From Neoarius graeffei (Eukaryota > Chordata > Actinopteri > Siluriformes > Ariidae), in assembly GCF_027579695.1 (NCBI RefSeq), contig NC_083579.1:68644871-68708870 (forward strand): a DNA stretch of 64,000 nucleotides, read 5' to 3'. The notes beneath the pieces were generated by a model, which worked only from the letters and a program-made list of their open reading frames with translations, searched no databases and was not told the origin of the DNA. This document shows, piece by piece, positions 3,301-64,000 of this stretch. How positions within the stretch are numbered: position 1 is the first letter of the stretch; the number at the start of each line of letters is the position of its first letter. Position numbers and translations under genes: made by a program.

Positions 3301-6300
3301 TTCACCATGGCATTGTTTCAACAACTCTATGCAACATCACAACACTTATTTCCATCCATAGTTGCACTATGAGAGAGATGAAACACTGCGTAAAGTCTTC
3401 TCCAGCACATCCCAAAGATTTTCAATGGGATTAAAGTTATCCTGCCTTTCAGATTTTTCAAGTGTAGGTCAGAAAAAGAATTTTCCCCAGGCTTTCGTCT
3501 AAACGGGGGAACAGGGGCGCTGCGCCCTCTTACTCTCGGCGTGCGCCCCCTTACCGACTCCGTGAAAACATCCCAGCAACACTACGTGACAATGTGTCTG
3601 ATCATCAAATACGTTATAATTGCTCCAAAAATATTCCAATCATAGTAGATACACCGCCAGACGGTGCAAAAACAATCCGAATTGGCGTTTTCCAGACTGA
3701 GGCTCCATGTTGTTTAGTTGTTTACTTGTCGCGGCTGCTCTCGCGAGATTTGACATGGGTTACATACAAGGTCAGCTGACTTGTAGAGCGAGATTTCTCG
3801 AGACTGAATGACCTTTCACCCACCGGCGCGGGAGCTTTTGACAGGAGTAGTTCGCGAGTTGTTTTTGTTGACACTTGGGCATTTAAAGATGTCATCCCGC
3901 GGCACGAAGCGGAAGAAAGCCAAAGACTGTCCGAGGCAGAAGAAGATTACTTCTTTCTTTTTCAATGTTGACAGACAATTTGTTACAATTTCCCTCTCAG
4001 ATAGCCTCAGAATGTCCCATTGGAGCATTTTTCAAAGGCTTTGCACGGCGGGGGGGGACAACCGGCACCATCTCCCCCCCCCCCCCCATCCCCTGCTTCG
4101 CTCCCTCGCCATGGTGAGCGCCCTCATACTAAATTTTTCTAGAAAAAACCCTGTTCCCTGACACCCAATTATTTTTGTTTAGTGGACTGAAAGCTCCTCA
4201 ATTCGAATCACTGACTTACAATTTTATTAGTTTTTTTTAAAAATAGAACAATTAATGAATTTATGCTGACAACCCAGTCCTCGCAGATAGCGTCGCAGAC
4301 AGTGTCTGCATAGCCCCCCCACCTTCGCAGACGCTCTGCGCGCACCTCCCAAAAATTGTGACCACCGCAGAAGCCTCGCAGACAGCGTCGCAGACAAGAG
4401 GGCTCTGATTGGTCCACTCTACATCTGCTGTACACGCACTTCCCTACTTTCCCGGTTTGGTTTGTTTTCACGACCGCCATTTTTAAAAACATGAGCGAAG
4501 ATGGAGCAGCACGAAGAGCGGTTGATCGAGGAAGTATGTACATCTATACAACTCCAGTTCTAGTCATTATTAAAAAAAAAAAAAAGTTCTAGTCATTATA
4601 AGTAACCGGAGGATAAACACTCCACTAACCACACCCACCAACTACTCCTAGCGACTTCGCGCCCCCTTGCGTTGTGGCGGTGAATAACATCGCGCACGCC
4701 TATTACTCCCCGCTCAACGATAAATTACAACTGTCTGCGAAAAGCTATCTGTGAAAGCCTTGTCGCAAGAGCATGCAGAGGCCTTTCAAGTGCATATCAC
4801 GGGTAAATTCAGGAGCAAGATCAATGCAATTCTCCTATTTTAGATTAAACTTTGGTCAAATATCTGTAGCATTCTGCATTTTGTGCAGTTTTTTTCCCTT
4901 GCGCAATACCAGAAAAATTCAGTTGAAATCAAGCCATTTGAGGCGAATTCATCCACCTCTGAAAAAACTTGGCATTTGGATTTCCCGGCAAACATCGATT
5001 TTCATGACGTCACGTGCGGGACGCCTCCTTCTGAATCCTACGTCAGCGCTGGTTTGTTTATGAGAAAACGACCGTATTATTTACATCCCCGGTGTTGTCT
5101 CCGTCGTCTTCACTACTAGAATCATCATCAAATCCAAACACATGAAGCCCCAGTTCTGACATCTCGTTATATTCTTCATCCAAAGGTGAAGTAACATTGC
5201 GCTCCGGTGACAATTCCATATTTCAATGCAAAATCGCTCGCTGCTAAACTTGGTCTACACAGGCTGTGCACTGAAACCGTGTAAAGCTCTCGCAGCCTGC
5301 CGGCGCTTCCGCAGGTCACGTCACGAATCTGGCTCCAGACTCCCTTGGGATTTTTCCAGACGCGTTTTGTTATTTTATTTTTTTTCTGCTGTAGACAGAT
5401 GGCCTTGTGCAAAATTACCCTTCTGGATGAGTGTGTAAAGGGACATACTTTCATATAAAAAAAGACGAAATTGGTCCAGAATATGCACTTTAAATTCTCT
5501 GCTATTTTTTTCCTGCTTCACCATGACCCAGTTCAAGATACTACATCATGCATCACGTAGTGGGCTTTCCCTGTTTGCACAAGGATACAAATTTGAAACA
5601 GGAGAGGAAAATTGAGGACGCGAATGAAACGTGAAAGATTGACTACAGTAACGGAAAGCGAGAAGAAGAAAAGACGTTATATGTGAAGGAAAAGAAACCC
5701 AGGACGAAACTAATAAATATCGGCGCTCAGCGAGCACCTCGGTGTGATCAGCTGTTCGTTTAGTGACAGAATGATGGAACTGTCAGTGCGCGGTCAAAGG
5801 TAAACCTGTAGATGGCAGTAATGCAACACTGTGGACGCCAGCTGCCTTAAAACCCAAAAGAAGAAGAAGGTGGTAAACTGTCTGCTTGACTGCACGAAGC
5901 GAGTGATTGCATGCACATTATTTGCTTTAATCCCCTCAAATAAAATAACTTCCCAACCACAGAATGGCCTGTTTTTTTTTTTTTTGAGATATTGCAGTAA
6001 TAAACATACATCACAGTGACCAAATTTCAGCAGGAACTAAATTTCACTGATTTTATGAAATTGAAAGGCCATCTAGCTTTAAGGTCAGGACTCTGTGGTG
6101 GCCAGTTCATCTGTGAAAAATGATTCCTCGTACTTCCTGAACCACTCTTTCACAGTCTGAGCTCTAATTTTATGCCCGTGCCTTCAGGAAAGAAAAAAAA
6201 TCTATAGATGTGGTGATAACCTGGTCATTCAGGTCGTCAGTTTTTATTTTATTGCCCCATAATGTTGCTGAGCCTCGACCTGACCAACTGAAGTAACTCC

Positions 6301-9300: not shown

Positions 9301-12300
9301 AAAATCACCTAATTTTTCTCTTTAAATGATACATTTTCTCAGTTGAAACATTTGATATGTCATCTATGTTCTATTCTGAATAAAATATGGAATTTTGAAA
9401 CTTCCACATCATTGCATTCCGTTTTTATTTACAATTTGTACTTTGTCCCAACTTTTTTGGAATCGGGGTTGTATAAAAGGTGAACACTGATGAAAACATT
9501 TTAAAAAAAATCTAGGAAATCTGAAATGAAGAAAGGAAAAGTTTCTTTATGGAACTCGACATATTTGTAATTGTCTCTTTTCTGCAGAGTCTTGGTGGAA
9601 ACGTCGTCCGGTGATCATTAATGGTAAAGCGGTGTGTGATGGTGGTGCATATTCTTGCAGAAGCCTTAATGAGCAGCAAACTGCTTTGTTGGGTCAGTGG
9701 TGCAACGCTGGATCGGACGCTTCAGAAACCCCTGCGAGAAACATTCAGCGTGAAAGGAGAGAGACTGAGGGACTGGTGGAGAGCAGATCTCTTCTGGAAG
9801 TCAGGGAGGTGGTAGTGGAGCAGAAGAGTGACATGGACGAGGACAAAGAGAACATTAATTCAGCAGACTTGATGGATGCTAATCCAGAATCGGAGATGGA
9901 AGGGGAGGCGGTCTGTGTATCGGAATGGACCAAAATCCAGACCGCTGCTGATGAGCGCAAATGGAAGTCTAGTTCTAAGGAGGAAAGGCAGAGATTTCAA
10001 GGGATGGTGACCGAGACTGGAGGTGTCTGTCCGTTCATGCCAGCAGGTGGGTTCTCGTGTCACTTAGGTTCTTGTATAGCAGCGCCATTCAGCACACTGA
10101 TGCGTCTTGGCTCTGATAACCATGACCTTCTTAAAAGCCCACAAGAATCCCAAGCTTGCACTAACAGAAACGAATCTTTCGAACCAGCAGCAGATGGTGC
10201 TGAAGAGAGTGAGCTTGATGGTTCTGATGTCCCACTACAATTGACTTCTGGGCTGTTTACTAGTCAGAATGTGTATGGCGATGACTTGGGCACCACAGGA
10301 AGTGATGCTCAGGTCAGTAATGGCAGGCTTGCGTATGACCCGAGTGGACTCCTGGTGGACAGCCATGTACAGTCCTTAGCTAATCACATATGGCTCCAGT
10401 CTATGCCCACTGGTTGGCATTTTCCAACGGGACTTGGACTGTCAGATGTAGTGTATCATCCCTTGCAGATCTCAGGCACAAGCTACTACCATGGATTTCA
10501 AGAAAATACAAATTTTGAAGGTAATTTTTCCCACAATGCATTTTATTATTCCCTGCTAATCATTTGTCCACCAAAAGGGCTTAATTTCAGTCTTCTATTT
10601 TGGTTTTTGACATTTTACTCAAATGTTAAAGGAGAACTGAAATCATTTTTAAACTCGCTTTATTTCTCAATTAATGTGTTATTCAATTACGTTTTCGGTT
10701 TTAGTAACCTTATATCGTGACTTGTATTGGCAACTAATTGCAATTAAGTAGCTATTATACTTATCGGCCTGTTCGGTTTTTAGCCGTGTTGAATTTAGTT
10801 CATTTGGTCCACGGCAGGCGTCGCTTATCCGCGCGATCTTCACGAGACTTGTGCGAGACTTCGAAACGTGACGTGTCAGCCAGGCGTCAGTACCGCCATT
10901 TTGAAAACTGTTTTCCAAACGAAATCTTGCACAAAAACGAGTTTAAATGACGATTACTGCCTACTTTTTTTTCAAACTTTCCTGATTGCTATCAAAACAA
11001 ACAAAACTTCTGGCTCGATTACATCAGCATTCGAAAGAGGGCGTGCGCGTCTTTTGACAACCCCTGTGTCCGAAATCGCTCCCTACTCACTATATAGTGA
11101 GGACGCCATTTTGTAGTGCTGTCCGAAACTTTAATGAGGATAATTTACACTGTATATAGTGCACTCAAAGTATCCCACAATGCATGAAAACTAGTGTACA
11201 ATGATGGTCACTAACCAAAGCAATATATCCCATCATGCATTGCGGTCGCGCTGAAAGAAATCAAATTAAAAGTCTCAAATCGGATTTAATCAAAGGCAGC
11301 GGCAAAGAAGAAAGTGTTCAGCCTTGATTTAAAAAAAAGAACTGAAAGATGCAGGTATCTGTGAAGATACTCAGTCATCCAGGTACATAGTAATCTGTGG
11401 TTGGTAGAAGAGAGCAACTGGACTTGCTTGAAGATTCTTGAAAATGTTTCGCCTCTCATTCCTAAAGGCTTCCTCAGTTCTGTCTGACTAAAGGGAGTAT
11501 CCAGTATTTATCCTCTCATGGATCATCATAGAATCCGAATCAGAATGCTGATGGCTGCATTGTAGGTGGCTGATAAAAGATGTCTTAGGCACCCACCTCT
11601 GTTCAATGATGGCCGTTCCAGGTTGACAAAAATGAACGATCCTGTCTGGCTAAGATGTCTGCCAATTTTCTGGAAGTCCTCTCGTACTCCCGCACCAGTC
11701 GAAGGGATCTCATCCCAAAGTGCGTAGAAACATATCTGTGAAGATACTCAGTCATCCAGGTACATAGTAATCTGTGGTTGGTAGAAGAGAGCAACTGGAC
11801 TTGCTTGAAGATTCTTGAAGACGTTTCGCCTCTCGTCCGAAAGGCTTCCTCAGTTCTGTCTGACCAATAGGGAGACAGAAGGGGAGGACTTGATCTTCAA
11901 GCAAGTCCAGTTGCTCTCTTCTACCAACCACAGACTACTATGTACCTGGATGACTGAGTATCTTCACAGATATGTTTCTACGCACTTTGGGATGAGATCC
12001 CTTCGACTGGTGCGGGAGTATGAGAGGACTTCCAGAAAACTGGCAGACATCTTAGCCAGAGAGGATCGTTCATTTTTGTCGGCCTGGAACGACCATCATT
12101 GAACAGAGGTGGGTGTCTGTGACATCTTTTATCAGCCACCTATAATGCAGCCATCAGCATTCTGATTCGGATTCTATGATGATCCATGAGAGGATAAATA
12201 CTGGATACTCCCTATAGAGATCTTGCATGTGACGTTACAGCCGATCCAGATTGTGACAGACGCCATTTTGTCGGTCAAACGCCATATTTCCGCCTTCTAC

Positions 12301-15300
12301 TTCTGGTTCTACTTCTACCTTTTCTTCTGGAAAACCCTACTATATATAATTCTACTATAACGGCTGCGGCTACAAGCTTTCCCTACCTGTGCACGTTTTT
12401 TATGTCTTTTGTGTGTATTTTTGCGTGTTGTTCATCTGTATCAGACTTCAATATCCACTACAACCGTATGGACTTACTGGACATTGGTTTCCAGCAGAAA
12501 ATGACGGTTTGTAGCGATTTCCATCGCATGCACAACATTTCCGGACGAGATAGCGAGACCAGCGGGGTCTCCGTGGATTGTTATCGGAAGCAAAGCGAAG
12601 GAGGCGGCATCAGGAGCGGAAGCAAAAGCGAGGCTGCAGGCAGAGCCGGCCTGTTGACTAAGCTCAGAAAACAGCCACTCAAACCTCCACTGCTAAGCCT
12701 CTAACTCTTCAACGCCAGATCCATGGTAAACAAGACGGACGATTTGGAATTACAGCTGGAATTACCTTATTCTATTCTATTCTATAATCGGCTGGTCAGT
12801 GCTAGCTACTACTGATATATCTAGTATTAGTACTCAATACTTAAGTGACTTACCCGTCCAATGAGGATTATTTTCTTGTTTACAAGATGCCGCGGCTGAC
12901 AAATCCTGAATTTCTGTAAAGATAACTGTCCAGAGATTTATAAGCACGCAGTGCTTCACCACTGAACAGCGAGTGAAAGTTGATGAGGTAATTATACACG
13001 TCTGGGTATTCCACCTCTGGCAGTTCCATATCCACTGACACGGTCGTGAAAACTCCGTCCGGTAAGCCATAAGGGTCACTAATCTGTAGATCGTTTATTT
13101 TAGCCATATATATCTAGTTATCTGTTCATTAGAAAAATGAGCCGTGTAGTCCGTCGGTTGAAATTGATCCATTCTGTACACGAGTGCAGCAGTATTCAGC
13201 TGTGTTGTTTGCCGACAAGATGGTGGCTGTTAACTTTCCGGTCACGTGACTGCAAGATCTCTATTGGTCAGACAGAACTGAGGAAGCCTTTAGGATGAGA
13301 GGCGAAACGTTTTTAAGAATCTTCAAGCAAGTCCAGTTGCTCTCTTCAACCAACCACAGATTACTATGTACCTGGATGACTGAGATTCTTCACAGATACA
13401 AATTAAAAGTCTCAAATTGGATTTAATCAAAGGCAGCGGCAAAGAAGAAAGTATTCAGCCTTGATTTAAAAAAAGAACTGAAAGATGCAGGTACTTTGTA
13501 CTGATTAATGTACTGTAGGAAATGTGCTCAGTATAATACGGATTTATCACAAAAACACATGCAGGTATTTATTTTGACTGATCTGGCATGTTTTAATTGT
13601 GCGACAGTAATAGTGTTGCCACACGTCCAGGTTTTTCCGGGATTGTCCTGGTTTTTTTGTGGAAAATGGAAAATGTCCAGGAAAATGGAATAACCTTCCC
13701 GGGACACGTTTTGCCCCGTTTTTTTACTTCCTCACATTATCCCCCATTGAAATAAACACAAATCATTAATGTTTCTCGCAGCCACTTAACATATTAATAG
13801 TTTTCACGTAAGCGGGCATATTGTAGGCAGCTACTTGTGTGGCCTCACCGAATCTTTGCGCAGGCAGCCAGTCGCCGTTGCTAGGTGATCGTGGTCAATA
13901 CAACGGCGGCCGCGCGAAATCAAAGATACTGGAATACCGTAATACCAAACAATAGGTGAGAGTTCCCTTGGTCGGTGCGCGAGTAGGCTGGCTGTCTACT
14001 TCCTATGTTCTGATTCTGATAAAGGCTGGTTCTAAAGCCTGGGCCAATTTCATCAATAAATGAATCATTAAATAAATCATTAAATATATCAAAAAAGAAT
14101 GCCTGAACACTGGCGTGAGAAATGAATAAATCAGTTGTCCCAATAACATAGCACCTCTCTCTTGTGATTAAAACAAAGGATTAGGGCTATTTGGTATGAT
14201 ACGGTAGTCTAACTTTTAAAGTTCAGTTCTCCAGAGAAAAGGCTAAAACAACAACGAAGCAGACTGAGAGAAATTATATTGATTATATTTGTATTATTTT
14301 GATTTGGAAACGGAATGGGAGGAGAGACAGACGATGAGGGAGTCGGACAGAATGAAGTAGAAGATCCGGTACCTGTCAAAAAGAAAAAAAGACATGTGAC
14401 ATTCAACGAGGGATGGGCAAATTTTGACACATTCAGCGAATGGGTAAGACCCACACAGGGCGACCCTTTTTCCGCCGCCTGCATTGTGTGCCCTGCGAAG
14501 ATAGTGATAAAGCATGAAGGAAGACTGGCCCTCGAGAATCGCACCAAGATCACGCTGTTAGCCTACTATTAAATATTTTGTTAAAAAAAAATATTGGCGT
14601 CCAAATAAGATCATTCCTATATGAAATTATTTTTTGTAATAATATTTGTGGTAGTGCCCATTTAAGGGTTAAGAAGACAAAATGAATTTTAACTAAACGC
14701 CTAACTGTACCAGTTGAACCGTTTTATTTTTAAACGTGAACATTCACATAAGGCATAAGGCATCGTAGATGTGCGTGTCCGCAGCCCTCAACCCCCGCGC
14801 TCGTACGTGCACGCAGGCGCGGCCGCCGACCGATGTGTCCCGGTTTTTTACAACTCAGATGTGGCAACCCTAGACAGTAATGATGTAAATACCAGCATGA
14901 CGGAGTAGTGTCCGAAAGCGTTTTTTTTTTTTTTCATTTTACCAATGAGCTCACTATATAGTCCTCTATATAGTAATTCCCTATATAGGGAGTAGTGAAC
15001 GAGTGCGATTTCGGACACAGGGAACGTTGGCACATGTCGGTCACTTTGATTTCCGCTGTACGTTTTACTTCCGTCCTACGATGTCTCGCACAGGTCTCAA
15101 CGGATCTCGTTTATGGCCATTGCTTTGACATGGACTGATATATTACAGAGCATATTTCAAACACTCATAACTTGCTATAGCAGCGACAAAATAGCGATCA
15201 AAAATGCATTCCGATATTTAATAAAATGAGAAATAGAATTTTGATGATGATGATAAATTTGCCTTCGGTTCTCCTTTAAATACAGGCTATGTACTGAACC

Positions 15301-20935: not shown

Positions 20936-23900
20936 CACTGCTTCAGATGGGTTAAATGCAGAGGATGAATTTCACTGTCCTTGAAATGTGCATGTGACGA
21001 ATAAAGGTTTCTTCTTCTTCCCCGGAGCTAAATTTGCCTTGGGAGACCCTACGAGGGGCAACAACACAGCTCCCAGGATCACTGGGGGACACAAACGTCT
21101 CCACCATGTTAAGGTGGAGATTCTTCAGAGCGACATTTAGATCCCTGGGATCTTTATTCACCCTTCCTGTTGAAACACACTTTGTGAAGCTGTGGCCCAA
21201 TAACCAACCTTCTTTCAAAGTCATGTCTCTTCATCTTGCTATTTGAACCCAAAATCAAGGACAACTGGGTCTGATCAGTATTTTTTACGTGCTCCAGGAC
21301 ATCAGGGTATTATTTTAATTGCTTAATTGTATCATACAGTGCGCAAGCAAGCAATTTTAGTGCAAGTTTACACTTTTCTCAAACACACACACACGCACAC
21401 TAGTTAATTCAAACATCATTAACAGCAAACCTACTTTTTCATAAAATGCTAGAGAATATTTTTCGCCAAGAATAGAGGAAATACAGGGAATAAAATCTGT
21501 TCTTTAACACTCAAATGTTTTAAAGTGCATATTCTGGACCAATTTCGTTTTTTTGTTTTTTTAATATGAAAGAATGTCCGTTTACACACTCATCCAGAAG
21601 GGTAATTTTGCACAAGGCCGTCTGTCTACAGCAGAAAAAAATAACAAAACGCGTCTGGAAAAATCCCAAGAGAGTCTGGAGCCAGATTCGTGACGTCACC
21701 TGCGGAAGCGCCAGCAGACTGCGAGAGCTTTGCCCGGTTTCAGTGCACAGACTGCGTAGACCAAGCGCTCCCATTTCTCTCTCATTGTCCGGTCTTTTGG
21801 GAAACGATGAGTACTAATCCCAGCAGGATTGGTGTTGCTACACCCTCCTATGGTACATCTGTTAACCATTTTAATAATTACTCGATAACGTTGAAGAAAT
21901 TTGCAGAAAACCACCAGGTCGTTTTCTCCTAAACAAACCAGCGCTGGCATAGGATTCAGAGGGAGGCGTCCCGCACGCGACGTCACGAAAATCAATGTTT
22001 GCCGGGAAATCCAAACGCCAAGTTTTTTCAGAGGCGGACCAATTCGCCTCAAATAGCTTGATTTCAACTGAATTTTTCTGGTATTGCGCAAGGTAAAAAA
22101 ATTGCAGAGAATGCAGAATGTGACAGATATTTGACCAAAGTTTAATCTAAAATAGGAGAATGACATTGATCTTGCTCCTGAATTTACCCGTGATATGCAC
22201 TTTAACATGGTTAAGAAATGATTGATTGCCATGTTGGTGTATTGTTGCAGGTGTCTGGTCAGGAGGACTTGTCCTATAAAACCCATCACCGGCGGCTTTA
22301 CGCACCTTTGTGGCCCAACAGCTTGGGTATCAACGATAACTGTCAGTACTATGACGTCTGTGAGCCTCAAGGCAAAGAATCAGGTCAGCCAATGTATGTG
22401 TTTCCAGAATACCTACAAGTGTGAGTGAGAGATTTTATTTATAAGCGTGTACCATTTTTGTGGTTAGAGTTTTGGTTTTCATTCTCATATCCTGTGTACG
22501 CGTTTGTGTTTATACAGTCCATACATAGGGGAAATTACTTTTTTCCACCCCTTTTTGCAAAATGTCTGTCATATTTGTTTGATATATATATATTATTGCC
22601 AAATAGCCTTTAAGAAGAACATATTGAAATCATTCTCATGGCTACAGCACAGAGATCACGAACACATTCGAAGTGCAGTTACAGATCTATTCCATTCAGC
22701 TAACATGATATTGAACAAGTCGAAGACGAGTATCTGAATGGAATATATCTGATATACCATGAAAAAAGCCAGCTGTTTATTATTATTAGAGTCATTCTAT
22801 AATTAGGGGTACATTTCATGTAAAGCAAAATCTCAAAATATCAGTATTCTTTTTCAATAAATGACCTATATGTTTCCATGGTATATACCCTCAAGTTCCT
22901 AAACAAATTAATTGCCAAACTTAATCTTAAATTACTTTTAAAATATTTTAATGAAAATGAACATTTGATTGTTTATTTTGTCAACCGTGTTACGGACAAA
23001 TGTTATGTCATCTTAAACACACACAAAAATACTACACATTTGAAAACACATTTGTTTGAAAGTGCTTAAGTCCATTAACAAGATGTTTTTAATTAATCTG
23101 TACAACTGTTATGGAAAATATGAATTTTGAGCTTCATAAATAGGATTTTATGGTTCACTGTGATGCAGAATGACACTTTTTTCAACATAAATCCTTGTTA
23201 CGTCGAATTTAGAGTTGTTCTCCCTCCTTATACAAGACTTCCCTATCCAGAGATAATCCCCAATCTTTTATTTTACAGTTCATCAAACACATAAGAGATT
23301 TATAGCACAAAAAACACTTGCAACACAGTTGACAGGCAATGTAACACAATTGACGGGAGTAACACAGTTGACAGGATAAAAAGAGCTTTTTATTGTTTTA
23401 AATTTAACTACAAATAAGCTGATGAATTCAGGTGAACTGTTAAAACAACATTTAGACACAATTTCAGAGAAACGTAGCTTATTTAACAAATTGAACATAT
23501 TAAATCGTTTGTTTGTCTGTCAATATGAAGATTAAGTGACAAAAACATCCTCCTCCTCAACTGTGTCATAGCTGATGGGTAACACAGTTGACGGTAACAC
23601 AGTTGACATTTCGGCCATTTTTAGAGTGTTGTGCTAACTGCAGACCTCAGAGCTCTCACTACAAGACCTTAATCAATTCATATTTTTATTATCTTTAGCT
23701 GTATACTTTGTAAATACAATTTCTAAATCAGGTTTATATGAATATGTTGACAACACAGTTGACAGACAGTTAACCCTCTCTAGGACTATACAACAGTATT
23801 GATGAAAATATTGAAGAGGTGAACTCAAAACTTACCACACGGTCTTCAAATTTCCCACCAAAGAGGATATGACATCACATGATGTTGGTCACATGACTTA

Positions 23901-26900
23901 GGACCAAACCATTTGCCGATTTATTGGGGGGGGGGGGGTTCAGTGGGTAACACAGTTGACATAAGTTTCTCGGACGCACACAAAATTCTTCATTTAATTT
24001 ATAATATAAAGCATTTTAGGCTTTTAAACACTTTTGTCATATTATTATAATAATTACCATGAATAAATATTTGTAAAAATTTTAAACAAAAACCTTTTTT
24101 TAAAATGTAAATATGAAGACCAAACCTGACCTTTGGAAAATCGGACAGCATAAAAACACCAAATTCCAGTATTATATATGCGTTTTTGCAGAGTAAAATG
24201 ATGTAATTTGTTGACTTTTTGTATTATATAAAAGAGAAATGTGTGCTAATGTACAAAAGATCATTGGCTGAAGTTAATAGTTAGTGAAATTGACAAATAC
24301 AGCACATGGACTTGAGATGTACCCCTAATTATAGAATGACTTATTATTATTATTATTATTATTATTATACACACACTTCTTATCAGCATTCTCAAAGGTC
24401 AATGCTAGCTTACCCCTGACTCGGTGCTGTTAGTGCAGCAGTGGAGTTACCTTCCAGACAGTGTGGTGTTAGCGAAGCCCAATGTTAGCGCAGTCGAGCC
24501 AAATATTATTATTATTTTCCCTGTGTAATTTACTGAGCTACTTTTAAAATCAACATCAACTACACACTGTACGGAGCAACCTGGCAGCCAAAATTCTCTC
24601 AATTTTCCGCTTTTAATGAAGAAACCTCGCGGCCATGTTTGTTTGCAAGTTGTCAGTCATTTGCTAGCACGGAAGTTTTACACCTCTGACGTCTCTTTTC
24701 TAGTTTTTCGATATCAGTTTTTTTCCCTCTTGTAAATATGCATGAAGAATATATAATGAAGTTTTGGTAGCCTTTCGGGTGTTCAGCACGTCTTCAGTTT
24801 TCAGTTTATTTATATTGTGCTTAATTATAGCATAGCTAATCCTAGCATGCACCGTGAGTTGGCCTAGTGGTTAGCGTGTCCGCCTCTCAATCGGGAGATC
24901 GCAAGTTTGACTCACGGTCAGGTCATACCAAAGACCATCATAAAAATGGTACCTACTGCCGTCTGGCAAGGCACACTGCAATACAGATGTGAGTGTGGAG
25001 TCAAACTCTCACGGTTACCAGAGGACACGCCCCCCCACTGTACCCCTAGCTATGTAATAGGCGAGAGGCTGAGGGCTACGGAAACGGAGATCGGCACCGC
25101 CCTATGCGCCTCTTGGCGTGGGAAGGACTTTTTTTTTTTTAAATCCTAGCATGCGCACCAGAAAAGTTTAGTCATTGGACCTTCGCATGAGCTCTGACGT
25201 GTGGCGTCATGATGTTGTGTTGATAATGTGCAATATTGTAACAATATTGCACGCTCATTCTCCATTGGGGAGAGTGGTGTAATACACAGAGGATAAGCGA
25301 TATGATAATAATATTGCATGCCATCAGTAAACCCACCAGAAGGGAATGGAATGCATGTTTTTATTCCATGGAAAAAGTGGCCCGGATGTATAATAATTCC
25401 CGATATTTCACTCTGATGATGTCACTCCCAATTGACTTGATGTGTGTTGTCAAAATAGCGAACCGGTTCAAAGTTAGAATTCTTTTGATTAGCTTGCGTG
25501 TTTTTTGTGGATGTGTCTATATAATTGTGGCAGCGGGGGCGTGGTCAAGTGTCGGTCTGTGACCGGAGGGCGGAGTCAGGGAAGGTAAGTGGCAGAATCA
25601 CTGCACCTGATGTTAATTAATGTGTTTGTGTGTCTTCCCCAGTGACCGCGCCCTATTTAAGGAGAGCGAGCGAGAGCAGAGGGAGGTCTCTCCCCAACCA
25701 GACGACTTGTGTGTGCGTGCGTGGCTGGGAGAGTCAAAAGTTTGCACTGAAAAGTGAAAATAAAAAGAGTTTTGTGAACTCAGTTCTGGCCTGCCGTCCT
25801 TCTGTGCTCGGTCCCGGGTTTCAGCACCACTGGGACAGTTCGTATGGGTGGGTGGAGCACAGAAGGACGGCAAAACTCCTTTTTATTTTCACTTTTCAGT
25901 GCAAACTTTTGACTCTCCCAGCCACGCTCGCACGCACACACAAGTCGTCTGGTTGGGGAGAGACCTCCCTCTACTCTCGCTCTCTCTCTTTAAATAGGGC
26001 GCGGTCACTGGGGAAGACACACAAACACATTAATTAACATCAGGTGCAGTGATTCTGCCACTTACCTTCCCTGACTCCGCCCTCCGGTCACAGACCGACG
26101 CTTGACCACGCCCCCGCTGCCACAATTATATAAAGAGCATTACATGGTGGTGCGAAGATATGAAGTTTATCTTCTCCCGTTGAAAAATATAATCGCTCAT
26201 ATATTTCACCGCTCGAAGATAAACTTCATGTCTTCGTGCCACTGTGTAATATCCTCTGTACGGTACATATGTGGAGATTTTTGGAACACCTTATGTATCA
26301 GAAAAAGTACTTTTGTGTGAGGGTAGGCCTGAATGCAGCTTTCTGTATCGAAGGGAAGTGGATTTTTAAAGTTGATGAGTGTGCATATCCTGGTGACAGT
26401 GTGTAGCTCCATTTTAAAGGAACAGTCCACCGTACTTCCATAATGAAATATGTTCTTCTCTGAATTGAGACAAGCTGCTCCGTACCTCTCTGAGCTTTGC
26501 GCGACCTCCCAGTCAGTCAGATGCGCTGTCACTCCTGTTAGCAATGTAGCTAGGCTCAGTATGGCCAATGGTATTTTTTGGGGCTGTAGTTAGATGCGAC
26601 CAAACTCTTCCACGTTTTTCCTGTTTACATAGGTTTATATGACCAGTGATATGAAACAAGTTCAGTTACACAAATTGAAACGTGGCGATTTTCTATACTA
26701 TGGAAAGTCCGCACTATAATGACAGGTGTACTAACACCTTCTGCGTGCTTCGGCAGCGCGTTGATACCTTCACTCGGAGTTGTACCATTTTTTTTTTAGA
26801 CAGGGCGGACGGACCAGGGCATTCGCCCGCCTGGTCGTGCCCGACGAGGAGCGCTCTCGGCCGGCTTGGGAGGCAGACGGCAGCCCCTCCTGGAAGCGTG

Positions 26901-29900
26901 GTTTTACCATGGGCCTCATGCGGAAAAATGACAAAGTCCCAATTTTACCATGGGGCTCGAGTTGTACCATTTTTTTTTAGACAGGGCGGACGGACCAGGG
27001 CATTCGCCCGCCTGGCCGTGCCCGAAGAGGAGTGAAGGTATCAATGCGCTGTCGAAGCGCGCAGAAGGTGTTAGTACGCCTGTCATTATAGTGCGGACTT
27101 TCCGTAGCATAGAAAATCGCTACGTTTCAGTTTGTGTAACTGAACTTTGTTTCATGTCACTGGTCATATAAACCTATGTAAACAGGAAAAACGTGGAAGA
27201 GTTTGGTCGCATCTAACTACAGCCCCAAAAAATACCATTGGCCATACTGAGCCTAGCTACATTGCTAACAGGAGTGACAGCGCGTCTGACTGACTGGGAG
27301 GTCGCACAAAGCTCGGAGAGGTACGGAGCAGCTCGTCTCAATTCAGAGAAGAACATATTTCATTATGGAAGTACGGTGGACTGTTCCTTTAAGGCATATG
27401 TGCTGGTGTGTGTGTGTGAAGCTATATTTATTCCCACTGCAGGGAAATTGCAGTATAATCATGACTTCCTGCGGCAGCTGCGTTACTGCCCAGCAGCCTG
27501 TGAGCGGCCCCCTGACCTGGAGCTCATACCAGGTGTCACCGACAACAGTCCAAGTAATGATCGAACCTATTTTTAATCATTTTGACTCTAAGCACCAAGT
27601 GTGGAAAATAAGTAGTGACGCTGACTGACTTCTCACACCAGCTGAGTCATGAGCCTCTACAATGGGATCATCTCGGTTCAGTTCAGTGATGCATAGAGCT
27701 ACTCATTGGGTGGTGGTTGTTGTTGTTCTATGTTTCCCTGATTCAAAATGAGTCGGCGTATACATATAATTTACTGTCAGGTCCTTTAAGGATTGCTAAA
27801 AACAAAATCCTAGTAAGCAGAGATGTATAGAGGGGGAAAAACCCCAGAATATTAGCACAAATTAGCCTGTGTGGACACCCTGGCCATTGAACCCATCATT
27901 CCAAAACCCTGGGCATTAAAGTGCTGATGACACGAACATGACTCTATACAATTTCTTAAATAAACTATACAACATGGCAAACATGTTAGATTTCTGTTAT
28001 AATTACGTGAAAAGAAGCTGTTGTTACGCGAATATCCAACTTTTAATTGCACAGCGCAAGAAAACTGGGTCCGTGGCTCACGGCCATGTTGTGACGTCAG
28101 CGGAAGAACACGCTGTGGTTCACTGGCTGTTCTACTCTGGTTCTACTCAATGGAAATGGCGCATGAAAACGCCGGTGAACTCTCTAGTGCTAGCTCTTCC
28201 TCTTCTGGGAGTCTAGAATTGTGTTGATCTCTTCCGAATAGAATCTATGATAACCTACCCTCTTTACCCTTTGCCTCTCGTTGCTAGGCGGCAGTTACAT
28301 GAAAGCCGCAAGCTTTCACAAGCAAATACATGACTGATATCACGCCGACTTTATGATTACATTTATGATTATCATGTAGAATCTATAGCTCTACGTACCT
28401 TTATCTTATGTCGTTTCACAACACATGTTCTGACAGGAGGACTGTCTTTGGATCTGGCATAGCTACGAGTAGACCCCCTCCGGAATACTGGCAGTGTTGC
28501 CAGATTGGGAGGAATCCCGCCCAGTTGGGCGGTTTCAAGTGCATTTTGGTGGGTTTTGAACATATTTTGGGCTGGAAAACGTCAGCAGTATCTGTTGCCA
28601 GCCCACGTTTTCCCGCCCAAAATATGTTCAAAACCCACCAAAATGCACTTGAAACCGCCCAACTGGGCGGGAAACCTCCCAATCTGGCAACACTGTGTAG
28701 GCACTGCTGATGGTAGTAACAGACGTTTGTGCTGAACTGCACACCCAAGAGATTCTTTTAAGCTGGGAAGGGTGTCAAAACAATCCAAATCGAAGTGTTC
28801 AGAGCACAGGACGGATGTTGGTGAGGGCTCCCACTTGTCACGAGTGCGCCTGACTTGCTTCACTCACTTCGCATGCAGCTCAGGATCTCTGGGAAACTTG
28901 ACTAAACTTACCCCATCCTTGGGGGTTTTGGAGCAAAAGCCGGCAACACAACGCGAAGGCATAATAACTATATATATAATAATGTATAATAATAATACTA
29001 ATAATGATAAAGTGAACACCTGTCGCATCAACAACAAACTGGTAAGTTAGGAGGAAGGTTCTTTCGCTGACGTCATATAGCTCCTCCTCCTTCATCTCCT
29101 GGGTGCTGCAGCCCTGTCAAATTTGCCCAAATAGCCGCATTTATCATCATACGTGTAAAATAGGCGCCTTCGTGAATTAATATATGGATCATCGGGAATT
29201 ACTTTTTACGTTATAAAACATCGCCAAAGATGTCAAAAATGTGTCATCAGCACTTTAATATTGAAGTGTTTTCTGCTATAATAGCCTCCACTCCTCTGAG
29301 AAGGTTTAGATTTTGGAGCGTGGCTGTGGATATTCGTGCCCAATCACCCACAAGAGGTTGGGCACCAGTGTCTGGCAAGAAGGTCAGGGCCACTGGAGTT
29401 CTTCCACACCAACTTTGCAAACCATGTCTTTATGGATCTCCTGTTTGTACACCGGGCCATCGTTATACTGGAACAGGTTTGGGCCTTATAGTTCCACTGA
29501 AAGGAAATCGTAATGCTCCGGTGTACAAAGGCTTTCTAGACAATTGCATGTTTCCAGCATTCTGGAAACAGTTTTGGGATCCACACATGGCCGATGGTCA
29601 GTTGTCCACAAACATTTGGCCACATAGTGCAAGTACTTGCCCAGATAATGTTGCACTTGGAGTATCAAACAAATCAACTTCTCAGATAGGAACACAATAT
29701 AGCTCAATAAAAAATAATTATGAAATAAATGATGCATACTGAAAGATGATGTTAAACAGTGACGTACAGAATACTTTTACTCTCTTCTTTTACAGGCCCG
29801 ATTCTAAAAAAGTTGGGACGCTGTGTAAACTGTAAATAAAAACAGAATGCAGTAATTTTTCAAATCATGGAAACCCTATATTTCATTGAGAATTGTACAA

Positions 29901-44106: not shown

Positions 44107-47100
44107 CTACAACAAGATAGAAAAAAAAAAAAAAGACAGAAATTTGATCAATGCTCAGAAATGAATCTTCTCCCTCACTGAACCACAGCAGCCCGGCTCA
44201 CAATGTTTGGTTAGCAGAACTTTTTCTGAATTTTACAGGTCTGAGAATGCTTGGTTACTTACCGTTTATAAACAATCCTTTAATACTGTTGCAGCATTTT
44301 AGTTGTAACTACATTAAAGGAACAGTCCACCGTACTTTCATAATGAAATATGCTCTTATCTGAATTGAGACGAGCTGCTTCGTACCTCTCCGAGCTTTGC
44401 GCGACCTCCCAGTCAGTCAGACGCGCTGTCACTCCTGTTAGCAATGTAGCTAGGCTCAGCATGGCCAATGGTATTTTTTGGGGCTGTAGTTAGATGCGAC
44501 CAAACTCTTCCGCGTTTTTCCTGTTTACATAGGTTTATATGACCAGTGATATGAAACAAGTTCAGTTACACAAATTGAAATGTAGCGATTTTCTATGCTA
44601 TGGAAAGTCCGCACTATAATGACAGGCGTACTAACACCTTCTGCACGCTTCGGCAGCGCATTGATATCTGAGCTCCGTATCAATGCGCTGCCGAAGCGCG
44701 CAGAAGGTGTTAGTATGCCTGTCATTATAGTGCAGACTTTCCATAGCATAGAAAATCGCTACGTTTCAATTTGTGTAACTGAACTTGTTTCATATCACTG
44801 GTCATATAAACCTATGTAAACAGGAAAAACGCGGAAGAGTTTGGTCGCATCTAACTACAGCCCCAAAAAATACCATTGGCCATGCTGAGCCTAGCTACAT
44901 TGCTAACAGGAGTGACACTGCGTCTGACTGACTGGGAGGTCGCGCAAAGCTCGGAGAGGTACGGAGCAGCTCGTCTCAATTCAGATAAGAGCATATTTCA
45001 TTATGGAAGTACGGTGGACTGTTCCTTTAAGGACCCGGTCCCACAACACCAAGAACCAGGCCCGCCGACGGGGGGACGACACAAACGGGTATGTTGTCCC
45101 GGGCCCAGGAATGGGGAGGGCCCAGAACTGGGCTCTCATGAAGTTGCGATTAAATTATTTTATTTCATTTCAAAATGTGTTGATTTGGGGGAGAAATGTG
45201 CTATATTTGCATTCAATAAATGATTTCTAGATCTTTTGCCTTTATTGTCTTTGAAAAAGGTGTCAAGAACCCCCTACCACCCCTAATGCAAAAATGGTTT
45301 GGTCTGACTCTTTGATTAAGGGGAAAAAAACGACATCGTTCGATCATAGCGCTTCGACAATCAGTGTGCGTGCCATTTGCCAACATGCACAAGTCAGGAG
45401 CACAGAAAAGAAAAGAAAAGAGAAAAAGAGAGGAAGAAACCAAGAGACTCAGGGGCTCACTGCATAAATATTTTAAAAAAGATTCGGATGATGCAGCAGG
45501 TACTAGCAAAGGCAGTGGGGCAGCTGAGCCAGGTAAGACACAGCCAACTTTTTCCAGCCCCGTAAAGTAACCCCAACCAAGGCACGCGCGGCACGCAATT
45601 CATGTTACAAAAGAGGGGAGAGCAAGTCACACTGAACACTATATCAAACGCACAGGGCATTGAATCATTTCATAACCACAACGGCTTAATAACATTGTGT
45701 TTCATATATCTGACTGAAGCTAAAAATATTCACATTAGCCCGCAATCATATCCCGCCGTTTCTCGAGCGGTGTGTTCTTCTCTGCTTTTCACACTGGACA
45801 GTACGCACGCACAGTATACCATGTTCGCCCTCAGCCCTGCCCGAAATCCCCTGTCCATCGCTGCTCCTTCAAGAGCACCCCAATCGTGTGATTATAGTAG
45901 ACTATCCACGAGTTTAGGAATACCTTTTTGAATACCTGTCATTTAAGGGTTGGAGTGAGTAGAGACTGGGATAAGAGAGGTGGGTGTGTGTGTGGGTTGG
46001 CCCAGGGGGGTGGGGGGGTTGTTAGGGGGGGCCCATTCAGAGCATTTTGTCCCGGGCCCAGCCAAAGCTGTCAGCAGCCCTGCCGAGAACTATACCTATA
46101 ACTACAACTATGACGATACCTACACTACCGTTCAAAAGTTTGGGGTCACTTTGAAATGTCCTTATTTTTGAAAGAAAAGCACTGTTCTTTTCAATGAAGA
46201 TCACTTTAAACTCATCAGAAATCCACTCTATACATTGCTAATGTGGTAAATGACTATTCTAGCTGCAAATGTCTGGTTTTTGGTGCAATATCTCCATAGG
46301 TGTATAGAGGCCCATTTCCAGCAACTCTCACTCCAGTGTTCTAATGGTACAATGTGTTTGCTCATTGCCTCAGAAGGCTAATGGATGATTAGAAAACCCT
46401 TGTACAATCATGTTAGCACAGCTGAAAACAGTTTAGCTCTTTAGAGAAGCTATAAAACTGACCTTCCTTTGAGCAGATTGACTTTCTGGAGCATCACATT
46501 TGTGGGCTCGATTAAATGCTCAAAATGGCCAGAAAAATGTCTTGACTATATTTCCTATTCATTTTACAACTTATGGTGGGAAATAAAAGTGTGACTTTTC
46601 ATGGAAAACACTAAATTGTCTGGGTGACCCCAAACTTTTGAACGGTAGTGTATGGCTGAATTTAGTTCCAGTCTGGAGCAGTCGCACCACAACTATAATA
46701 TCGCTTGGTCTTGCCACTCAGGTAAATCAACACATGCAACTTAGGAATAGTCATGGAAGTTTTTTCCAAGTAGTAGCACAATATTCGCATGGGTCATTCC
46801 ACGTCAATTCAACCGGAGCCCGCGCACTTAGGTCTCAAAAAATTCTGAAAAAAAAAAAAAAAATCACCAGATGTACCCATGTTACCTAGGAGCATACATG
46901 TCAACCTATCCGGAATGTCCGTATTTTATACGGACTTGATTCAATAAACGTAGTATACGGGCGTATAAATAAAGTTATACGGATTCTTTAAAAAAACTTC
47001 AATATTTATTTAGAGCTATAATCAATTCCCACGATGATAAAAGCGCGCATAACATTTACAAACGTACTGTACACCACAGACAGCCAGTAAAGAGTCTTAT

Positions 47101-53100: not shown

Positions 53101-56100
53101 TCCCAGCGTGCTCACGGGGCGTGTGTGGGCATGTGAGGACACGCCTCCTCACCAATCAGTGCACAGGGGAGTGTCTCCTCACGCCCCCAGCCCCACTCGG
53201 CTCGGTTTGGCTCGCTTCAGCCCTACTCCAAAACCGTGCGAGTTTTGGGTGCTAAGCAGGGCTGAAGCGAGCCGAGTCGTGCTGCTCTGAGGTAGTCGAA
53301 ACGCAAGCCGTGTCGGGCTGAAGTGAGCTGAAAAAGGGTAGTGGAAAAGGGCCATTAGTGGAAAGCCCTGATCCTTGCTGTGTAATTTGTTTCTTTGCCC
53401 AGTTGTAAACTTCTTTTAGCTTAAGAGATAGTAACAGTCAGCCACTGGATGACTAATTCGGTGTGTTTCTACGCATTTCTGTATTTGGACTGAAGTGTGC
53501 TGCATGCTTTTTTGAGTAAACACCCATATTGTGGCTTTCTGTTTAACTGTCCATCAAACGAGGGGGCGGGTACTAAAGTCTTCGTACAGTACAGAGAGTC
53601 TATGAAAGCTCAGCAGTTTTCTAAACTCTACTCAGCTCTTATAATCAGTTCTAATTAAGGATAAAGCTTTTAGTGCATAGTATGCAGCCTTAAATTCTCT
53701 TTTCAAGTATGAGGTTGAAATCAAGTCATACATGAGCTGATAGCCGACGAGGCGCCGAGTCGGGTATAATCCATGTACGACGAGATTGAGTGGAATAACT
53801 ACTTTATTCTATCCGCATTCACTGGATTTTGAGAAATGGAGTATTTTTAAAAATTTTTATTGTTTGCAAATTCGACAAATAAAAACTTTATACAAAACAT
53901 CCGACAAAATCATTTCCTCTTAGAATGTAAACCAACCGGCGAAATGACAGGAGCAATTTGTGAAAAATGCTTTAAAGGAGACATGAAGGCAAATTTTTTA
54001 TTATCAAAATTCTCTCGTTTTATTAAATATCGGAATGCATTTTTGATCGCTAGTTTGTCGCTGCTATTATAGCAAGTTATGAGTGTTTGAAATATGCTCT
54101 GTAATATATCAGTCCGTATGTCAAAGCAACGGCCGTAAACGAGATTCGTTGAGACCTGTGCGAGACATCGTAGGACGGAAGTAAAAAGTAAAGCGGAAAT
54201 CGACGTGACCGACATTTGCCAACGTTGTCAAAAGACGCGCGCGCCCTCTTTCGAACGCTGATGTAATCAAGCCGGAAGTTTTGTTTGTTTTGATAGCGAT
54301 CAGGAAAGTTTGAAAAAAGTCGGCAGTAATCGTCGTTTAAACTCGTTTTTGTGCAATATTTCGTTTGGAAAACAGTTTTCAAAATGGCGGCGCTGACACA
54401 TCACGTTTCGAAGTCTTGCACAAGTCTCGTGAAGATCACGCGGATAAGCGACGCCTGCCGTGGACCAAACGAACTAAATTCAACATGGCTAAAAACCGAA
54501 CAGGCCGATAAGTATAATATTTAATTGCAGTTAGTTGCCAATACGAGTCACGATATACGTAAGGTTACTAAAACCGAAAATGTAATTGAATAACATGTTA
54601 ATTAAGAAATAAAGCGAGTTTAAAAATAACTTCAGTTCTCCTTTAATAATAATAATTCTTGTGGAAAAAAAAAATTTCTTACCATTTCATTTTATATTTG
54701 GTTGCTTGTTTGTTTTTTTTTTATTTTTTGGGGTTTTGTTTTTGAGTAAAGTTTTTATTTTGTCCTTGGTTCGTTCAGCAAAACGCTCCGCCATTTTGTT
54801 TTTCTTTACTCACAGTATATGAGCTGATATCCTAGTAGTAGAGTAGCCAATCAGAGCATGCGATTGCTCATATCCAGTGAATGTGGATAAAATAATAATA
54901 ATACGTGTGCATGTAGAAACTAAATATGAGTGTATGCAGTGTCTTGGTTGGAGTGAAATGCAGGGCGTAATACCTCCTCTCACTGCGGCTGTTCTTGCGC
55001 ATGGGGCTGCCTGGATTACGGAGAGGAGATCCCATGTCTTTCCTTCTGTCCTTGGTGGGTGAAACAGGTGCTGGCTTGCCAATCTGCAATACATTCATTC
55101 CCTTCATTTAATACTGGCAGACTGCTACGTCCATCATGCCCTTTTTTTTTTTTTTTTTCAAATCAGAGCACTAAAGCAAAAACTATATTGAAAACTTGTA
55201 TGTTCTCTTAAAGCTACAGTCTTGAGAATGTCATTATGGTTTTCAAAACGAATACCGACAGATGCACTCGTGCCTGAAGGCAGATACACATCAGGATTTT
55301 AGAAGGAAGATATAACTATACACTGTAACCTCTCCTCCAGCCACACACACACACCAATCACTTGAAAGTGATGGAGGAGAGCATGCAAGCTGAGTTGTAC
55401 ACAATCACATCACGAGAGCAGCAGAGGGAAAGTGCTGAAGGTGGCACCAGGAGAAAAGCTGACATAAACTCCTTGGCTCTCGAATGGTATTACATCTATT
55501 CAGCGAGATTACTTTCTTAATTAAATCAGTTATCGGTTGATGTTACCAGTCATGTGTGATGCAAAAGAGAGGAAAAGCAATTAAATTAAGTACATTGCGT
55601 GTGAGTGGAATTTCTTCATAACTACCTAGACTGATGGATAAATAGGAAACACTGCTAGGAAACGATGAGTGCATAAAACACATGATGTCAGCACGCATCA
55701 AGATCAAATATACGCACGCAACACGCGCTCTTCGGATTATCCGACATTTTTTCCTCGAGCGCTGTTCAGATCAAGACTACTATTGGTGCTTTCTGTCTCC
55801 CGTGCGTTTCGTACATAGTGTGCCCAAGGTCGAAGCTTTCTACGGCTTCCTTAATTAATTTACTGACCCTGTTGCATTAAACTACGAGCTTTCCATTCAT
55901 GTGTTTTTGTTATATACTCAACAAAAATAAAAACTTTACACTCGTTTCAAAGTCAATAATTTGAACATTTTGGAAAATAGGTTTGAAATAACGATTGTAT
56001 TGAATTATCTTGTCATTAAAGATGCTATAGCATACAGATCATGTTTGTCATGGAATCGGTTCCACTGGAAATGCGACGACAATGTCCATGATCAAAAACT

Positions 56101-59564: not shown

Positions 59565-59993
59565 CTGGAGTGGAGGTCAGGTTAAGAAATGGAAAGTTCA
59601 GTCGTCTTAGAGAGTCTTTATTTCTCGGTAAGAATGTAGGTCCAATTGGCGTAGCACTAAAGCAGATTTCTCGCATAAAACTAGCTTAAAGTGCTGATGA
59701 CACGTTTTTGACATCTTTGGCGATGTTTTATAACATAAAAAGTAATTCCCGATGATCCATATATTAATTCACGAAGGCGCCTATTTTACAAGTTATGATA
59801 AAAAACGCGGCTATTTGGGCAAATTTGACGGGGCTGCAGCACCCAGGAGACGAAGGAGGAGGAGGGGCTATATGACGTCAGCGAAAGAATCTTCCTCCTA
59901 ACTTACCAGTTTGTTGTTGATGCGGCAGGTGTTCACTTTATCATTATTAGTATTTTTATTAGACACTATTATACATTTTATATATTAGTTATT

Positions 59994-60380
59994 ATGCCTT
60001 CGCGTTGTGTTGCCGGCTTTTGCTCCAAAACCCACAAGGATGGGGTAAGTTTATTCAAGTTTCCCAGAGATCCCGAGCTGCATGCGAAGTGGGTGAAGCA
60101 AGTCAGGCGCACTCGTGACAAGTGGGAGCCCTCACCAACATCCGTCCTGTGTTCTGAACACTTCGATTTGGATTGTTTTGACACCCTTCCCAGCTTAAAA
60201 GAATCTCTTGGGTGTTCAGTTCAGCACAAACGTGTGTTACTACCATCAGCAGTGCCTACACAGTGTTGCCAGATTGGGAGGTTTCCCGCCCAGTTGGGCG
60301 GTTTCAAGTGCATTTTGGTGGGTTTTGAACATATTTTGGGCTGGAAAACGTCAGCAATATCTGGCAACAGATACTGCTGA
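59994..60380 (+). CDS. THAP-domain ORF in TTAA element (intact finger)
   Basis: Starts [18 protein letters not shown] complete THAP zinc finger: C5, C10, C53 and H56 as the C2CH ligands, Trp33, FPRDP, Phe57 and an LLPSAVPT end like the AVPTI box. The domain fills residues 1-89 (59994-60260). The frame then enters the nested foldback and ends at 60380 without a transposase domain. THAP fingers bind DNA in P, Kolobok and host transcription factors. Here it is likely the targeting domain left from an autonomous element. Confidence 0.8.
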   Translation: MPSRCVAGFCSKTHKDGVSLFKFPRDPELHAKWVKQVRRTRDKWEPSPTSVLCSEHFDLDCFDTLPSLKESLGCSVQHKRVLLPSAVPTQCCQIGRFPAQLGGFKCILVGFEHILGWKTSAISGNRYC

Positions 60381-60470
60381 CGTTTTCCAGCCCAAAATAT
60401 GTTCAAAACCCACCAAAATGCACTTGAAACCGCCCAACTGGGCGGGAAACCTCCCAATCTGGCAACACTG
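60261..60470. repeat. Nested foldback CAGTGTTGCCAGATTGGG, copy 2
   Basis: 210 bp, near-perfect complementary arms, same position as 28492-28695 in the other THAP element. It truncates the THAP frame. Confidence 0.85.
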
Positions 60471-61046
60471 CCAGTATTCCGAAGGGGGTCTACTAGTAGC
60501 TATGCCGGATCCAAAGACAGTCCTCCTGTCAGAACATGTGTTGTGAAACGACATAAGATAAAGGTACGTATAGCTATAGATTCTACATGATAATCATAAA
60601 TGTAATCATAAAGTCGGCGTGATATCAGTCATGTATTTGCTTGTGAAAGCTTGCGGCTTTCATGTAACTGCCGCCTAGCAACGAGAGGCAAAGGGTAAAG
60701 AGGGTAGGCTATCATAGATTCTATTCGGAAGAGATCAACACAATTCTAGACTCCCAGAAGAGGAAGAGCTAGCACTAGAGAGTTCACCGGCGTTTTCATG
60801 CGCCATTTCCATTGAGTAGAACCAGAGTAGAACAGCCAGTGAACCGCAGCATGTTCTCCCGCTGACGTCACAACATGGCCGCGAGCCACGGACCCAGTTT
60901 TCTTGCGCTGTGCAATTAAAAGTTGGATATTCGCGTAACAACAGCTTCTTTTCACGTAATTATAACAGAAATCTAACATGTTTGCCATGTTGTATAGTTT
61001 ATTTAAGAAATTGCATAGAGTCATGTTCGTGTCATCAGCACTTTAA

Positions 61047-61841
61047 CGCTATCCTGCTTTTCAGATTTTTCAAGTGTAGGTCATAAAAAGAATTCTCCCT
61101 GACGCCCAATTATTTTTGTTTAGTGGACTGAAAGCTACTGAATTCGAATCACAGACTTCCAATTTTCTTATTGTTATTTTTTACAATAGAACAATTAATG
61201 AATTTAGCGCCACGTGGCCCTAAATTCTCCGCTATTTTTTCCTGCTTCACCATGACGCTATTCAAGATACTACGTCATGCATCATGTGGTGGGCTTTCCC
61301 CGTTTGCGCAAGGCATTGTGGGATACAAATCTGGGATACAAATCTGGGACACAAAAGGAGAGAAAAATGGAGGACGTGAATAAAAAACTATAGTAACGGA
61401 AAGCGAAAAGACGTTATGTTATATGCGAAGGAAAGGAAACACAGGACCAAACTAATAAATATCGGCGGTCAGCGAGCACCTCGGTGTGATCAGCTGTTCG
61501 TTTAGCGACAGAATGATGGAACTGTCAGTGCACAGTCAAAGGTAAACCTGTAGATGGCAGTAATGCAACACTGTGGATGCCAGCTGCCGTAAAACCCAAA
61601 AGAAGAAAAAGAAGGTAAACCTGCGCATGCGCACACGGACTTCCTCTGTCTGCTTGACTGCGCAAAGCGAGCGATTTCATGCACATTATTTGCTCAGGAA
61701 TCTCCTCAAATTAAATAACTTCCCAGCCACAGAATGGCCTGATATTTTGTGAGATATTACAGAAATAAACATATCACAATGACCACATTTCAGACGGAAC
61801 TAAATTTCACCCATTTTATGAAATCGAAAGGCCGTCTAGCT
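61047..61841. mobile_element. TTAA element, family AGYTA, uninterrupted copy
   Basis: TTAA at 61043-61046 (shared with the THAP element) and 61842-61845. Matches the split copy at 3435-6078 and the partial one at 63466. Contains a possible hairpin-rich centre but no recognised gene. Confidence 0.78.
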
Positions 61842-63465: not shown

Positions 63466-63683
63466 AAGTAGACGGCCTTTTGATTTCGTAAAATTTAGTT
63501 CCCTCTGAAATTTGGTCATTGTGATATGTTTATTTCTGTAACATAGAAAAAAAAATATATCAGGCCATTCTGTGGCTGGGAAGTTATTTAATTTGAGGGG
63601 ATTCCTGAGCAAATAATGTGCATGAAATCGCTCGCTTCGCGCAGTCAAGCAGACAGAGGAAGTCCGTGTGCGCATGCACACGC
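63466..63683. mobile_element. TTAA element, family AGYTA, partial third copy
   Basis: TTAA at 63462-63465, end AAGTAGACGGCCTTTTGATT, homologous in inverse to about 61620-61841. Cut by the next TTAA element. Confidence 0.65.
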
Positions 63684-63687
63684 TTAA

Positions 63688-64000
63688 AGTGCATATCCTG
63701 GACCAATTTTGTTTTTTTTTTATATGAAAGTATGTCCCTTTACACACTCATCCAGAAGAGTAATTTTGCACAAGGCCATCTGTCTACAGCAGAAAAAAAT
63801 AAAATAACAAAATGCGTCTGGAAAAATCCCAAGGGAGTCTGGAGCCAGATTCGTGACGTCACCTGCGGAAGCGCCAGCAGGCTGCGAGAGCTTTACACGG
63901 TTTCAGTGCACAGCCTGTGTAGACCAAGCGCTCCCATTTCTCTCTCATTGTCCGGTCTTTTGGAAAACGATGAGTACTGATCCCATCAAGATTGGTGTTG
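63688..64000. mobile_element. TTAA MITE, family GTGCATAT, copy C (cut by window end)
   Basis: TTAA at 63684-63687, end AGTGCATATCCTGGACC. It follows copy B (21524-22201) closely up to the window end, including the start of the THAP-type middle segment. It interrupts the AGYTA-family copy. Confidence 0.8.

Follow-up and report, generated by a model that had tools for sequence, protein, structure and literature searches.

Elements of five families in the window

The window is the 64-kb stretch of DNA analysed here (G000:C11:68644871-68708870). It contains ten complete copies of elements that belong to five families, which we call E1 to E5 and which are about 0.7-1.4 kb long when free of inserts. 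All five of the TTAA-flanked end families described in the first-pass annotation are present, and its estimate of about a dozen copies is reached when three partial copies (E3c, a single E4 end and a diverged E5 end) are counted with the ten complete ones. The ten complete copies have TTAA at 19 of their 20 flanks, the exception being TTCA on the left of E3a (at 4789), and 19 of their 20 ends start with AG, the exception being the left end of E5b (at 61047), which starts with CG.

E1a (59690..61042, plus strand) is a non-autonomous, Kolobok-type element of 1353 bp with ends AGTGCTGATGACACG and TTAA at 59686-59689 and 61043-61046. The second of these TTAAs also serves E5b (61047..61841, plus strand), which adjoins E1a directly. 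The interval 59690-61841 spans two abutting elements with one common TTAA. The other E1 copy, E1b (27920..29254, minus strand), is 96% like E1a and has a THAP frame that is broken after 32 aa. Both window E1 copies have AG...CT termini (5'-RR...YY-3').

The remaining families are spread across the window, and no strand is assigned to the E2 and E4 copies or to E3c. E2a (26418..27388) has ends AGGAACAGTCC and long inverted arms, and E2b (44318..45026) is a foldback copy of the same family. E3b (21524..22201, minus strand) has ends AGTGCATAT; E3a (4789..5489, plus strand) is nested in E5a and is without a THAP start; E3c (63688..64000) is cut by the end of the window and has a THAP-half frame at 63999-63862 on the minus strand. 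E4a (10630..15275) has ends AGGAGAACTG, E4b (53976..54642) has ends AGGAGACATG/AGGAGAACTG, and the single E4 end is at 32566. E5a (3435..6078, plus strand) has ends AGTTATCC/AGCTAGATGG, and the diverged E5 end is at 63466. E4a and E5a owe their length to inserted DNA, about 4 kb of it in E4a and several inserts including E3a in E5a. At about 59300-59540 on the minus strand there is a stretch with the look of a host exon, perhaps vasohibin-like.

TTAA as the target duplication

When the window is scanned without selection for 12-base inverted ends flanked by TTAA, 9 pairs are found, versus 1,0,0,0,0,0,0,0,0,0 pairs in ten Markov-simulated windows. Several of the 9 pairs lie inside longer inverted repeats, and for this reason other palindromic 4-mers equal or beat TTAA in the scan. 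The scan is weak on its own because palindromes within long inverted repeats mislead it.

Copies elsewhere in the genome (2.34 Gb in 38 contigs) and empty sites are more direct. In a search with E1, the best 40 of 3603 candidates were scored; 39 of these run end to end (1-1361) and one covers 1-1354. At all 20 loci that were fetched, one of them the window copy, there is TTAA on both sides, a count favoured by a query that itself included the TTAAs, and the 8 bp beyond the TTAA differ from locus to locus. Five insertions into other repeats (four of the E1 family and one of the family of L022) allowed seven comparisons with unfilled, paralogous copies of those repeats. A single TTAA stands at the empty site in five comparisons, CTAA in one and TTCA in one; the alignment of empty sites, which the annotation had proposed as a check, bears out a TTAA duplication for the E1 and L022 families. 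We conclude that TTAA is a true target duplication for E1. For E3a, the right flank can be set beside E5b, as TTAAATTC versus CTAAATTC.

The THAP exon of E1 and its palindrome

The THAP frame that had been placed at 59994-60380 in E1a is real. It is an exon frame of 128 aa (59994..60377, plus strand) that matches the THAP profile PF05485 with 58.9 bits, and it encodes THAP until 60260, where it enters a palindromic insertion. This palindrome (60261..60470, no strand) is about 210 bp long and near-perfect, and it lies within the AVPT-F box of the THAP exon. A palindrome self-match is seen in all of the best 40 E1 copies scored of the 3603 candidates. It is absent from the longer E1 relatives L024 and L033-L036, whose THAP exon is unbroken and reads on as ...SAVPTVFRRG. 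An AVPTIF-like box is thus interrupted in the window E1 copy and is present as AVPTVF in copies without the palindrome. At the palindrome, a 2-bp CA has possibly been duplicated, and the palindrome has been co-amplified with the E1 subfamily. One of the longer relatives, L024, has a second, different THAP-like frame within 3654-6982 (NTCVIVGCSSRG...CSDHF), which by eye is a nested element.

Many E1 copies keep the frame open. Among 21 copies, 16 have the full 128 aa, three are broken inside THAP and two stop early after it. The 49 substitutions found in these 21 copies over 267 positions comprise 10 synonymous changes, 36 replacements and 3 stops, or 20/73/6% versus 28/69/4% expected without selection; 19 of the 21 copies are among the best matches to the window copy, and the count is biased to young copies.

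Kolobok loci with a transposase-like gene and KolX

Elements of the Kol0 lineage (Kolobok-1_XT type) are described, in the available portion of PMC9587614, as having a TTAA duplication, RR...YY ends, a transposase gene and a second gene, KolX, with similarity to the P2X7 ballast. We find matches to both genes in this genome. The locus L041 (C7:14743700-14752300) was picked for THAP and KolX matches 4.6 kb apart. It is bounded by TTAA at 277 and 7162, with ends AGGGATACAG and, as the probable right end, AGGGGAATGG. Its THAP exon scores 63.6 bits, and KolX (PF20478) on the other strand scores 44.6 bits. A transposase-like exon reaches 25.2 bits with the Mutator family PF20700, below the cut-off of 26.5, and finds no match up to E 1 among solved structures; one further exon is without a Pfam match. 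Judged from these profile matches, we read L041 as a nearly complete Kolobok that has both KolX and a transposase-like core.

The THAP of E1 and the THAP exon of L041 share 56% identity. In a tree of 23 THAP rows, L041 and seven E1-family rows are joined at 85/86, which is under the tool's strong mark, and L041 is flagged as a long branch whose placement is unsure. The leader is also alike. Counted from the element end, the THAP start codon lies at 304 bp in E1, 332 in E3b, 300 in L041, 330 in L030, 328 in L027, 311 in L038 and 293 in L042, that is, 293-332 bp at seven loci, with L028 (1524 bp) as the exception. L041, L042 and L043 were considered as the autonomous partner of E1 and rejected, since none carries E1 ends.

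A genome-wide search with the L041 exon gives 89 transposase-like matches (all 109 candidates scored), and a search for KolX gives at least 144 matches among the best 150 of 245 candidates, some of which may be host genes, for instance P2X7 itself. Of the 89 transposase-like matches, 37 lie no more than 20 kb from a KolX match (35 different ones), and in 37 of 37 cases the two are convergent, tail to tail; chance alone would give about 0.22 pairs. The other 52 are without a KolX match within that distance. As a control, none of 119 piggyBac rows has a KolX match within 20 kb. In the E1 family, THAP and KolX matches within 6 kb of each other are likewise convergent (17 of 17, 871-1478 bp apart, among the best 150 THAP and 150 KolX places). 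Separately, KolX and transposase-like matches cluster on G000 C1 at about 85-96 Mb, with 8 of the 144 for KolX lying at 85.0-93.9 Mb and 13 of the 89 transposase-like ones at 86.2-96.3 Mb. The cluster contains no KolX/transposase-like pairs within 20 kb and may represent an expanded or a domesticated group.

Remnants of Kolobok genes in E1 and, probably, in E3

E1 has a remnant of the second gene. A KolX-like first-exon stub in E1a (60735..60812, minus strand) encodes 25 residues and then a stop, and longer relatives read on. The stub is kept in 21 of 21 aligned E1 copies with at most single changes. L033 is a 1739-bp copy of the E1 family, and its frame opposite THAP reads, in part, ...IQPYRFEPV. 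By blastp among four first exons, that of L033 matches those of L041 (E 5.5e-5), L038 (0.002) and L028 (0.06), and the exons of L041 and L038 match each other (8e-5); taken alone, neither the L038 nor the L041 first exon reaches a Pfam family. In the element L028, which is flanked by TTAA and has AGGAGTACGCC as its ends, the frame opposite THAP matches P2RX7_C (PF20478) at its cut-off with 23.5 bits; its relative L022 scores 17.4 bits, under the cut-off. In the E1 family, KolX is represented by its first exon, in the longer copies and convergent to THAP, and the ballast part is not seen in the E1 copies read. Of the best 150 KolX-like first exons of the E1 family, 11 lie within 3.4 Mb (G000 C6, 98.9-102.3 Mb).

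A second THAP frame had been claimed at 21696-21869. There is no match on the plus strand of this interval, but its minus strand (21869-21696, in E3b) encodes the N-terminal half of a THAP domain, which covers profile positions 1-38 of 87 and scores 27.1 bits, above the cut-off of 23.9. Over 37 aa this half domain is 54% identical to L030 and 49% identical to L027, two loci that also match the L041 transposase exons. In E3a, a 48-aa acidic frame (5219-5074, minus strand) is found where KolX would begin, and by this position and its acidity it is a candidate KolX start.

It might be argued that the THAP frames are pseudogenes of host THAP genes, or pieces of P-superfamily elements, and that the TTAA flanks are coincidence. 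THAP domains do occur in host genes, and the closest solved structure is THAP2 (43.5 bits). P elements make 8-bp target duplications, in contrast to the 4-bp TTAA seen at E1 empty sites. The empty sites together with TTAA flanks at 20 of 20 loci, the KolX-like exon in the E1 family and a THAP domain that is nearest to a Kolobok THAP exon all speak against such an origin, and we consider it hardly credible.

The transposase itself is another matter. Neither the 20 E1 loci nor L024, L033-L037 or the window contain a match to the transposase exons of L041. The first-pass annotation had proposed a search for an open transposase frame beside a THAP exon; none of the 89 transposase-like matches lies within 15 kb of the best 150 of 2564 E1 KolX-like exons or of the best 150 of 1118 E3 frames. 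Among the exons scored and the loci read, there is no autonomous copy bearing the ends of E1 or E3. The enzymes of E1 and E3 may have been lost, may have diverged or may be supplied by a relative.

Superfamily assignment

Based on these results, we conclude, with a probability of roughly 0.88, that E1 to E5 are non-autonomous TTAA transposons, that E1 and probably E3 are deletion derivatives of Kol0 Koloboks, and that E2, E4 and E5 most likely belong to the same superfamily. The Kolobok assignment made from the first pass holds for E1, which has the TTAA duplication, AG...CT ends, a THAP exon nearest to that of L041 and a KolX-like first exon. E1 lacks a DDE core and is therefore filed as a non-autonomous derivative only. 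E3 is likely a Kolobok as well, as its half THAP is closest to two Kolobok-type loci with transposase-like exons (L030 and L027).

For E2, E4 and E5 the assignment is backed by TTAA and AG...CT ends alone, and they are probably Koloboks. Their copies have TTAA at 12 of 12 flanks and AG at 11 of 12 ends, and a tblastn search with 13 exons (E 0.001) gave no THAP, KolX or transposase remnant in them. These three families, in contrast to E1 and E3, could instead have been mobilised by piggyBac, a different class of transposase with the same TTAA target. The genome has 119 piggyBac transposase rows above the family cut-off, a few of which are fragments of a single frame. Many are open across 500-600 aa and several have equal scores, which suggests a probably recent spread, and no protein remnant links E2, E4 or E5 to Kolobok. 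However, the AG at 11 of the 12 ends gives 5'-RR...YY-3' termini, which is the difference between Kolobok and piggyBac termini given in the available portion of PMC9587614, and E2 and E4 fit the rule TTAA + AGGRR for T2-MITEs (PMC6004289, in part). We regard mobilisation of these three families by piggyBac as unlikely and favour their membership in Kolobok.

Relation to known elements

The elements most similar to those described here are Koloboks of the Kol0 lineage, both of whose genes are matched in this genome and are convergent where paired. E1 to E5 differ from them in being without the transposase core, and E1 keeps first exons only. The XKol elements of Xenopus have TTAA and AG-starting TIRs that vary by subfamily, e.g., AGTGATACTGAC and AGGAGAAGG, and their Kolobok THAP domains carry an AVPTIF-like box (PMC6004289, available portion); TTAA, AG-starting TIRs, and THAP with an AVPTIF-like box are found in the E1 family too. 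In contrast, the elements in Table 5 of that source are 6.8-13.9 kb long and have a transposase, whereas E1 to E5 are about 0.7-1.4 kb. E2 (AGGAA) and E4 (AGGAG) resemble the T2-MITEs of Xenopus, which are short, non-autonomous and of high copy number, but the starts of E1 and E3 (both AGTGC) and of E5 (AGYTA) are outside AGGRR (PMC6004289, in part). Elements of the piggyBac type likewise target TTAA and are abundant in this genome; they differ in the absence of KolX within 20 kb of their 119 rows and in the AG ends of E1 to E5. We found nothing further of use in the literature on T2-MITEs or Koloboks in catfish. E1 to E5 are new non-autonomous members of a known superfamily, newness being judged without comparison to a repeat library.

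Proposed origin and possible function

We postulate that Kol0 Koloboks with two convergent genes, a THAP-bearing transposase gene and KolX, lost their catalytic middle by internal deletion and gave rise to E1 and probably to E3. Such derivatives retain the terminal inverted repeats, a roughly 300-bp leader and, from one gene or from both, the first exon. Mobilisation would occur in trans, with a transposase that recognises the derivative's own ends cutting at TTAA and duplicating it. E2, E4 and E5 are most likely further deletion derivatives, each with its cognate ends and, we suspect, its cognate transposase.

In many copies of the E1 family the THAP exon and the KolX-like first exon are both open, and the catalytic and ballast parts are missing. 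Truncated P-element proteins damp transposition. By analogy, an open THAP-only protein, if expressed, would occupy Kolobok ends and damp transposition, and the E1 family would act as a regulator of the superfamily. We found no paper in the literature on THAP repressors, and the pattern of substitutions in the E1 THAP is near that expected without selection; the repressor idea is therefore unsupported by sequence, and we consider it improbable.

E1 provides a clean and checkable case of the shrinkage of a Kol0 Kolobok, in which a leader of about 300 bp and a first exon are kept and the middle is lost. Our results also lend weight to the view that, in this genome, the transposase and KolX move together as two convergent genes. 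TTAA together with a THAP frame can reveal the right superfamily from raw sequence, and TTAA alone is unfit for merging families.

One machinery or several

It had also been suggested that a shared machinery mobilises all five families. A single Kolobok transposase acting in trans would account for the common target, the common first two bases and the similar leader up to the THAP start at seven loci, and since no transposase-like match lies near the scored E1 and E3 exons, the enzyme of another element may act on them. However, the ends of the five families share only AG and differ beyond it, and five other THAP-bearing TTAA families (L041, L042, L030/L027, L028/L022 and L038) have their own ends, with one end read for L042 and L030/L027 and no transposase seen in L038. 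The subfamilies in Xenopus likewise have their own ends (Table 5, PMC6004289, in part). We therefore doubt very much that one enzyme moves all five families, and the suggestion of a single machinery finds no support here.

The ages of the families point the same way. Identity to the window copy, taken over the best 40 matches per family, is 97-98% for E1, 96-98% for E2, 93-95% for E3, 91-93% for E4 and 86-89% for E5; these are best matches and not averages, and they suggest ages without dating the families. The differences between 86-89% and 97-98% argue for bursts that probably occurred at different times. E5 looks older than E1, and therefore E1a was probably inserted into E5b's own TTAA.
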